Assembly (NCBI GenBank): GCA_022829145.1
Contig: CM040761.1
Location: 13,698,245 to 13,762,244, forward strand
Length of the DNA: 64,000 bases
Reading direction: 5' to 3'
Origin: Albula goreensis
Taxonomy: Eukaryota; Chordata; Actinopteri; Albuliformes; Albulidae
Positions within the stretch are counted from its first letter, which is position 1. Every line of letters starts with the position of its first letter. Under the pieces are notes generated by a model that made no database searches, had not been told where the DNA came from, and saw only the letters and a program-made list of their open reading frames with translations. Both the position numbers and the translations under genes were made by a program. Shown one piece after another: positions 44,295 to 47,200 of this stretch.

Positions 44295-47200
44295 GTGAGG
44301 CACGATTTAACTTTCTGAAAAACCGTTTGGCAATTTTCCTTTTGTACTGAACATAGATATGTTTTACATTGTGATCTTGTGCTGTTTAACCCGCATTCTG
44401 GTTTTAATACATCGCCTTAATGCTAAACCTGATTTTCCTAACAAGTGACAAGTTTCTCATTTACTCTCAACAGCCTTTCTCAGACAACAGCGGGAACACT
44501 TAAAGAAGCAGAAACAAATGACAATATCACCATATTCACGAGGATCCTGGATGGACTTCTCGATGGCTATGACAACAGGCTTAGACCTGGATTGGGAGGT
44601 ATGCACAAAAGAGCAGAGAACTATGCCGTCTCTATCCATATTTTTTTACATGAGCCCACTGGCTTCTTCTCTCAGATCACATTGCCATGCAGTATTCATA
44701 CTGCATCTGTATCACAGGATTAACAATGTATTAGTGTTATCCAACTATGTGAATTCAATTGTATTAAGAAGAAACACAAGTGGATTTTGCTCAGATTAAG
44801 TACATTATTTCAGTTTGGTCTCTGTGAGTGCTTGTGCTGATGTTATAAAGAATTCTTATAATTGCATTACATTACATTTCCCTATTTCTGATGCAGAATG
44901 CAAGAAATGCAATGCTAATCCCCTGACAGTTTCATAGAAAAAACATGTCTCTGTGCAGCTGTTTTTTTTGTACTGACTTACACGCACACACACATGTGCA
45001 CACACACGTACACACACACACACAAGCACAAGCACACAGCAAGGTACAAAAAGAAGAGAGAAGCACTAAGCAAAGCAATTGTAGCAACTGATGGAACTTA
45101 GTGCAAATGAACTGCATTGCCAACATTCTCAGAATCACAGCCCTTCTCAAAGTGCAGTTACATCTGCAGAGAATGACCTTGAGCAAGAAGTTCTTTGTGC
45201 ATTCGCTCAAAAGGAACAACAGTAAGGCAGTAATGCACAGGAAAAACCTTGCTATGGCCAATTCATGTTTTAAGACTGAAGTGACTAAAGGAAAGTAGTT
45301 AAGGTTAAAATAAATGTGTGTATCATTCTACGAACACAACACATCAGTACCGCAGTGTATTCATTATTTTAAAAATGCTTCACGTATTATGAGTGTTCGA
45401 CGTACATTTGTTACTAGAATAATTAAAGCCTTAATTCAGGGTTTATTCATCTTAGGAATGATTATACTGCTTTTGTGGTTTAGTTCACATTACATACATG
45501 TATTATGAGTAACATTTCTTCCATATTCAATATTTTGGGATGTTGTATTTGCCAGCTCACATGGACAATTGTTTTAGTTTACAGCTATGATTTTAATGAT
45601 GTATGTATCACAGTCCTTCTAAGCAATCCTTATTAAAAATGTTCTGTCCTCCATGGAATGTAACTTCAGTTTCCTCTGACAGTGAGGAAGTGAAGCCAAC
45701 TGAACTAAAAAGGTGGTATTTAGCGTGATGCTTGCACTTTAACTAACACTTTGTTTGTAACCTTTCACAGAAAAGGTAACCGAGATTAAGACAAACATCT
45801 TTGTCACCAGCTTTGGCCCAGTTTCAGATACTGAAATGGTACGTCCCTAATTGAAACAAATGGCTCTGTCACATTTGCAAATTGAGTGCAGCACGTGTGC
45901 TTATGTATCAGACCAGAAATAAAGCTGCATCCTAATAAGGCATGTTATATATAGTAGTTATCCCTCCATAACTGTTCATATTTAAATAGTCTTATAGGAT
46001 GCACATGTGTAAGAACAATGTTATTTCATCTATCTTTTTCTAAAATTGATCCTAACTATCAACAGTATTAATATGCAGGCATAAATTTGTGTTGCGTACG
46101 CATGAAGTGGAGAGGGTTTGTGGGAAACAGCTTGATTAATGATTGCCGTGGTTGCTGTTGCAGGAGTACACAATTGACGTGTTTTTTCGGCAAAGCTGGA
46201 AGGACGAACGCCTGCGTTTTAAAGGCCCGATGGAGATGCTCCCCCTCAACAACCTGCTTGCCAGCAACATCTGGACCCCCGACACTTTCTTCCTGAACGG
46301 AAAGAAATCCATCGCTCACAATATGACGACTCCCAACAAGCTTCTGCGCCTGAAGGACGACGGAACCCTGCTCTACACCATGAGGTGATTACATTGCCCA
46401 CCTGAGACCCCCAGGGGGCTCTGCATCTCCCCCTCAATGGTGCTGTGACCACATGGCCAAGCGTGCGAGCACAGCTAGTGGCCCCTCTGGTGGGAGACAT
46501 AGGGGAGAAGGGAAGCTTTCATGATCTCTTAACATGGTCACAAGGTTAGATGAAAGCGTAGAAGACATCTGGCCTCCTGTGTGTTTAGATTTGATGAAGC
46601 GGGCTGACAGAGCAAAACCATGATGCATTTGTGTTACTCTAACAGCATTCATCTTTGAGTAATGCTTTTGCTCAATAAACAGAGGAGAGAAAAATGGTCT
46701 CAAAACACCATGCATTTTAGTCATAACCAAGAGTTACTTAATATTAATCACCTAATTAATCATAATATTTAAACTAAATTTACCTGCAAATTTAAAATGT
46801 AATCAGATTATGAATGTACAATGAACAGTACTTGTGAAAAGTAATAAAAAAAAAAGATTTTTTTACATTCACAATTTATGCTGGTGCTCCATTGAATGCA
46901 AGATCTCACAAAATAACATGCTCGGTCAAACAAGTGATCAAAAAGTGAATTACGGACTTGTTTTGTAGTTACATGGTCAGATATCAACCACATCCTGTTT
47001 CCTGCAAGCATATAGTCAGATTGGGTAGTACAAGACCACAGAAATCAAATATTAATAAGGACATAAGTATGGAAGATGAGATATCGTCTAAGAGGGAAAT
47101 GGATCTTTAATAACACTCGCAGTAAAGCTTCATGCAATTGACATTTTATACCGCAGTTATTAAGAGGTTTGTCTCTTAATGCATTTCCGTAATTGGAAAT

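Follow-up and report, generated by a model that had tools for sequence, protein, structure and literature searches.

The window, a stretch of 64,000 nucleotides of the Albula goreensis genome (C21:13698245-13762244), was analysed together with the sequence beyond its end and with the complete assembly (931,924,363 bases, 208 contigs), and carries on its forward strand exons of the GABA-A receptor gene gabra5. Eight coding exons of this gene were assembled, from window position 44474 to C21:13771804, yielding an open frame of 435 residues with a stop codon; AG precedes all eight, and GT follows all but the last (Table 1). A signal-peptide exon was not found in a strict hydrophobicity search using one splice phase. 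Exons of gabrb3 lie upstream on the reverse strand and exons of gabrg3 downstream on the forward strand, and the mammalian order is GABRB3-GABRA5-GABRG3; the beta-type exon is presumably gabrb3, a name given from its motif and the gene order. Simple-repeat tracts occur in and around gabra5 at roughly window positions 41016-41225, 43781-44158, 52900-53060 and 54544-54822 (extents of the repetitive reading frames), one of them stopping less than about 100 bases from the exon at 53068.

Table 1. Features of the gabra5 locus (plain numbers are window positions; C21 marks contig positions beyond the window end)
Feature	Position	Strand	Remarks
Beta-type exon, taken as gabrb3	13149..13370	-	Leu at homologous loop A position
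gabra5 coding exon	44474..44598	+	5' limit is a chosen AG in an open frame
gabra5 coding exon	45771..45838	+	first codon split
gabra5 coding exon, loops D, A and E	46164..46384	+	EYTIDVFF...LLYTM, 221 bases, AG/GT borders
AAC (Asn) at alpha-5 Lys96 position	46266..46268	+	Lys in 12/12 other alpha sequences compared
CTG (Leu) at mature alpha-5 His105 position	46293-46295	+	loop A of the benzodiazepine pocket
gabra5 coding exon, Cys-loop, start of loop B	53068..53150	+	
gabra5 coding exon, loop C with R210	C21:13764780-13764923	+	
gabra5 coding exon, Q212, V215 and TM1	C21:13769391-13769543	+	
gabra5 coding exon	C21:13769956-13770167	+	
gabra5 coding exon	C21:13771502-13771804	+	
gabrg3 exon (L038)	C21:13853107-13853328		Ile (ATT) at gamma-2 Phe77 position

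For phylogenetic placement, 145 aligned residues from the exons for loop A and loop C/TM1 were analysed with FastTree, leaving out mammalian alpha-4 and alpha-6; gabra5 groups with mammalian alpha-5 and not with alpha-1, -2 or -3 (support 0.950). The best PDB match of the assembled protein is an alpha-5 structure, and that of the loop A exon is 6a96_A (alpha-5), with 69 of 74 residues identical. Searching the genome with the loop A exon returned at least 36 places (best candidates), a single one of which is alpha-5-like, the next best being alpha-3 at 86% identity, so that neither a second alpha-5 copy nor an alternative His-bearing exon was found among the 36 best places listed. Judged by sequence, the locus is the true gabra5 and the sole copy among these places, and its eight exons bear no sign of damage.

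Mature alpha-1 His101 corresponds to mature alpha-5 His105, and mammalian alpha-4 and alpha-6, which are insensitive to classical benzodiazepines, have Arg there. The initial annotation had reported a Leu in place of this histidine, and both the codon and the alignment to 6a96_A, which has His at the same position, confirm it. Its description of the exon as intact and alpha-5-like also holds, given the open frame between AG and GT, the alpha-5 best match and eight exons without sign of damage, as does its count of two base changes between the His and Leu codons: CTG is two bases from CAC, the His codon of fish alpha-1, -2a, -2b and -3. Restoration of His by A-to-I RNA editing was ruled out, since CTG contains no A.

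The loop A residue was read in 27 of 30 loci, leaving out L050, L053 and L054 (matches of at most 40% identity); the six further places among the 36 are without a locus (at most 43% identity). Nine alpha-type copies of the exon were found, of which four carry His (CAC; alpha-1, -2a, -2b and -3), four Arg (two alpha-4, one alpha-6 and one alpha-6-like) and alpha-5 alone Leu, so it has neither the His of the benzodiazepine-sensitive alpha-1/-2/-3/-5 loop A (FFHNG) nor the Arg of alpha-4 and alpha-6. The names alpha-4 and alpha-6 are our assumption for the fish copies, made mainly from similarity, because the mammalian subunits lay outside the tree. The alpha-2 types and the alpha-4 types are each paired on C23 and C18, a duplication that points to a teleost. 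The two alpha-4-type copies (L031, C18:5617826; L032, C23:18613867) have identical exon 6 proteins; for zebrafish, a single gabra4 is described (PMC7973766, excerpt). Among the beta-type exons of this genome, three of five carry Leu and two Ile at the homologous position, and Leu therefore suits the fold.

The junction of exons 8 and 9 falls inside loop C, and since the loop C exons lie past the window end, the changes in this loop are invisible within the window. In the alpha-5 numbering of PMC10716045 (excerpt), the fish loop reads EDIY-T-S-R-G-Q-Y-T-V versus ENIS-T-S-T-G-E-Y-T-I in mammalian alpha-5, the changes being N205D, S207Y, T210R (CGA), E212Q (CAG) and I215V. T210 and E212 are conserved in 12/12 other alpha sequences, including the Arg-bearing fish types. 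As to the pocket hallmarks of alpha-5, T208 is kept and I215 is replaced by Val; F103, Y163, I206, S209 and Y213 are likewise unchanged, and K96N, T217M and H221Y are further changes near the pocket. Compared over 223 residues of the extracellular part and the beginning of TM1, the fish and mammalian proteins show 28 differences (87.4% identity). Loop D (FFRQSW), on the GABA-site side, and M2-M3 are conserved. Conversion to a new GABA-binding plus face was considered and set aside: beta subunits have a Glu in their loop B motif, and as loop B of fish alpha-5 (KFGSYAY) lacks it, there is no sign of such a conversion.

Nine alpha-side pocket residues (F103, H105, Y163, I206, T208, S209, T210, Y213, I215) were taken from PMC9357065 and PMC10716045 (excerpts). 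Three of the nine are changed in fish alpha-5, an enrichment among the 28 differences that is not significant (p = 0.089), and fish alpha-1, -2a, -2b and -3 differ from their mammalian orthologues at 0/8 comparable residues, Y163 being left out for these because it sits on an excluded exon junction. Private changes were counted over 145 residues at positions that do not vary among all the remaining alpha-1/2/3/5 sequences of the comparison. By this count alpha-5 breaks 6/101 positions (K96N, H105L, T210R, E212Q, T217M, H221Y), and in the same fish alpha-1 breaks 0/95, alpha-2a 0/95, alpha-2b 2/97 and alpha-3 0/95; the comparison of alpha-5 with its fish sisters gives a Fisher p of 0.0014, for a count chosen post hoc and a test in which related sequences pass as independent. 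Extended to all 223 residues, some positions of which are covered by fewer fish sequences, the count for alpha-5 is 7/160, the seventh change being V44I. With the alpha-4/6 types added, the 12 other sequences agree at 71 positions, and alpha-5 breaks three of them (K96N, T210R, E212Q); alpha-6 breaks 3/71 and alpha-6-like 6/74, at other places, and alpha-5 is therefore not the sole gene with private changes. Within the alpha-1/2/3/5 group of this fish, it is the one with the most. It is also the fastest of this group (tree branch of 0.146 versus 0.034-0.091, over the compared residues), and as it evolves faster than alpha-1/2/3, the changes in the pocket may belong to an overall acceleration. 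The six private changes sit in or just before loop A, in loop C and in the following strand; in this receptor family, loops A and C and the strand after loop C are parts of the principal face.

Which alpha subunits respond to benzodiazepines is set by one histidine, as known mainly from mammals, and sensitivity is commonly taken for granted in fish alpha-5. A paper on zebrafish alpha subunits gives the alpha-1/2/3/5 rule as a general statement, and another, on seizures in zebrafish, discusses a drug site at the alpha5-gamma2 interface as one possibility. Oocyte recordings with GABA exist for zebrafish alpha5-beta3-gamma2 (PMC7973766, excerpt), from a paper in which the word 'diazepam' is counted zero times. 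Among the open-licence titles and abstract beginnings listed, there is no report of Leu at the loop A site in a fish or of a GABA-A alpha subunit mutated from His to Leu, which is weak evidence of absence; the mutants for which functional data came up have Arg or Ala. Exchange of the histidine for Arg abolishes midazolam potentiation in alpha-1, -2, -3 and -5, including alpha-5 H105R (PMC6234229, excerpt). The loop A His touches the chlorine of diazepam, and alteration of T207 of alpha-1, the equivalent of alpha-5 T210, dramatically disrupts zolpidem efficacy (PMC9357065, excerpt). Because of H105L and the further pocket changes, receptors of this alpha-5 type probably respond differently to diazepam-type drugs; most likely they form a working GABA channel with a weakened or altered response to classical benzodiazepines, and L105 together with R210 is most likely more disruptive than L105 alone. 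By analogy with alpha-5 H105A, the Leu by itself may leave an altered site instead of abolishing it, since this mutant retains its affinity for DMCM in an assay by [3H]flumazenil displacement, so that the radioligand still binds (PMC10716045, excerpt). The initial annotation had expected modulation to be lost or altered: the H-to-R data and the chlorine contact speak for altered, while a loss would be less certain, given the binding still seen in H105A. The pharmacology predicted for this alpha-5 is a sound expectation.

We consider it probable that the locus encodes a teleost alpha-5, the one copy found, whose plus face has drifted or been remodelled, with GABA gating kept and classical benzodiazepines poor at the alpha5+/gamma- interface. 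Constraint would have been relaxed or altered on the benzodiazepine-facing (principal, +) side of alpha-5, which pairs with gamma, and this face would have been reshaped by H105L in loop A, by S207Y, T210R, E212Q and I215V in loop C, and by K96N, T217M and H221Y nearby. GABA would still open the channel via the beta+/alpha- sites, the GABA-site side being conserved. Classical benzodiazepines would bind or act poorly at alpha5+/gamma-, because the His-chlorine contact is gone and an Arg replaces a pocket-lining Thr of loop C.

The ligand preference of the pocket might instead be altered and not lost, which we hold tentatively, as a little short of an even chance: flumazenil, DMCM or zolpidem-like ligands would still bind, since Leu105 is non-polar like Ala, and only some classical 1,4-benzodiazepines would lose efficacy. 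Consistent with this, H105A separates basmisanil from two PAMs, in addition to leaving DMCM affinity unreduced; zolpidem is less dependent on the loop A His (PMC9357065, excerpt), and six of the nine listed alpha-side pocket residues are conserved. However, T210R adds a long, charged side chain to loop C, flanked by E212Q, and the Ala data cover neither.

On the gamma side, the gabrg3 exon past the window end has Ile at the position of gamma-2 Phe77, and Phe is found there in two gamma-1-like exons (L035 and L044). Mammalian gamma-3 has Phe there. Since mammalian gamma-1 has Ile (PMC9357065, excerpt) and the gamma-1-like exons of this fish Phe, the gamma-1/gamma-3 pattern may be swapped here. 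According to the same excerpt, exchange of gamma-2 Phe77 for branched residues such as Ile lowers zolpidem affinity more than 600-fold and that of diazepam about 5-fold. In the gamma-2 exon of the fish, both the FFAQTW motif and Met at position 130 are preserved. We take these to be pocket residues of gamma-2. In part they are given as such in PMC9357065 (excerpt). As gamma-2 keeps them, fish alpha-1/2/3-gamma-2 receptors should be benzodiazepine-competent, and since the pocket residues checked are intact in alpha-1, -2, -3 and gamma-2, general diazepam effects in this fish should persist. The initial annotation had pointed to consequences for drug testing in fish; for the same reason, that concern stands in a limited form.

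A co-ordinated or adaptive change, in which alpha-5 (+) and the linked gamma-3 (-) evolved together toward a different interface or a different endogenous modulator, is unlikely in our estimation. The two genes are cluster neighbours, each with a key residue altered in an interface of the same type, and T210R is a gain of charge, so that the exchanges in alpha-5 are not all conservative; against this, the comparison comprises one genome, and the Phe of mammalian gamma-3 is presumed. More doubtful still is the proposal that in this fish lineage the alpha5/gamma3 arm of the linked cluster gave up the benzodiazepine site on both faces (H105L with T210R in alpha-5, Ile at the Phe77 position in gamma-3), the interface being reused, for example for a different endogenous modulator or a new inter-subunit salt bridge; if true, this would make the fish a natural test case for a physiological role of the conserved benzodiazepine site.

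A sequencing or assembly error or a rare allele behind the Leu, conceivable with a single assembly, is highly improbable, as the initial annotation had judged for sequencing error: the codon is two bases off CAC, the gene is open with AG/GT borders, and five more private changes are spread across three exons, their position around the same pocket making a lone base error unlikely. A decaying gabra5 copy heading for loss, to which the faster evolution relative to the sister genes and the missing signal-peptide exon could point, is scarcely credible for a gene whose eight exons are open and bordered as described, with M2-M3 identical to mammalian alpha-5, 87.4% identity over 223 residues and no second alpha-5 in the list of 36 places.

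The probable reading, of an alpha-5 with a changed plus face, can be set beside several known systems. Mammalian GABRA5 (6a96_A, 9haa_A) is alike in tree position, gene order, best match, T208, Cys-loop, loop D and M2-M3; the fish protein differs from it by H105L, T210R, E212Q, I215V, S207Y, K96N, T217M and H221Y among the 28 differences, I215V dropping the alpha-5-typical Ile, and by L-to-M and I-to-F exchanges in TM1. The diazepam-insensitive alpha-4 and alpha-6 likewise lack the loop A His but have Arg instead of Leu; their fish counterparts keep T210 and E212, which fish alpha-5 has lost, and the latter gene is an alpha-5 by descent. In engineered H-to-R receptors and mice (H101R, H105R) the same residue is changed, with midazolam potentiation abolished in receptors (PMC6234229, excerpt); the fish variant differs in being natural, in having Leu rather than Arg, and in the exchanges in loop C that go with it. 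Among beta subunits (loop A ..TYFLNDKKS), Leu likewise occurs at the homologous position, but their loop B Glu is absent from fish alpha-5. The Leu codon is confirmed, and the finding is extended by loop C. For this species, an alpha-5 that naturally carries Leu105 and Arg210 would be an exception to the alpha-1/2/3/5 rule; it would show that the site can go in one alpha yet stay in its sisters, and would provide a ready-made variant for studying how loops A and C shape drug action. Were the condition to extend to model fishes, tests of alpha-5-directed drugs in them would be misleading.

Pattern matches to prokaryote contigs (76) and viral contigs (16), considered as relatives by contamination, were in no case confirmed. 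Locus L071 (C2:19131330-19131520) is an exon coding for TM1-TM2 in a divergent subunit of alpha-6-like type (GEYSLQVIHFFLERK...SIPARTVAG), for which no exon 6 partner is listed on C2 among the best candidates, and which may for this reason represent either an incomplete tandem copy or an alternative exon; it lies about 3.4 kb from exon 9 of alpha-6 and resembles the alpha-6-like gene on C6. In TM1 of fish alpha-5 (C21:13769391-13769543), the sequence is TYMPCFMTVILSQ versus TYLPCIMTVILSQ in fish alpha-1, -2a, -2b and -3, with TYMPCFMTV in place of TYLPCIMTV. The two changes adjoin the proline of TM1, which belongs to a transmembrane drug site (PMC9357065, excerpt).
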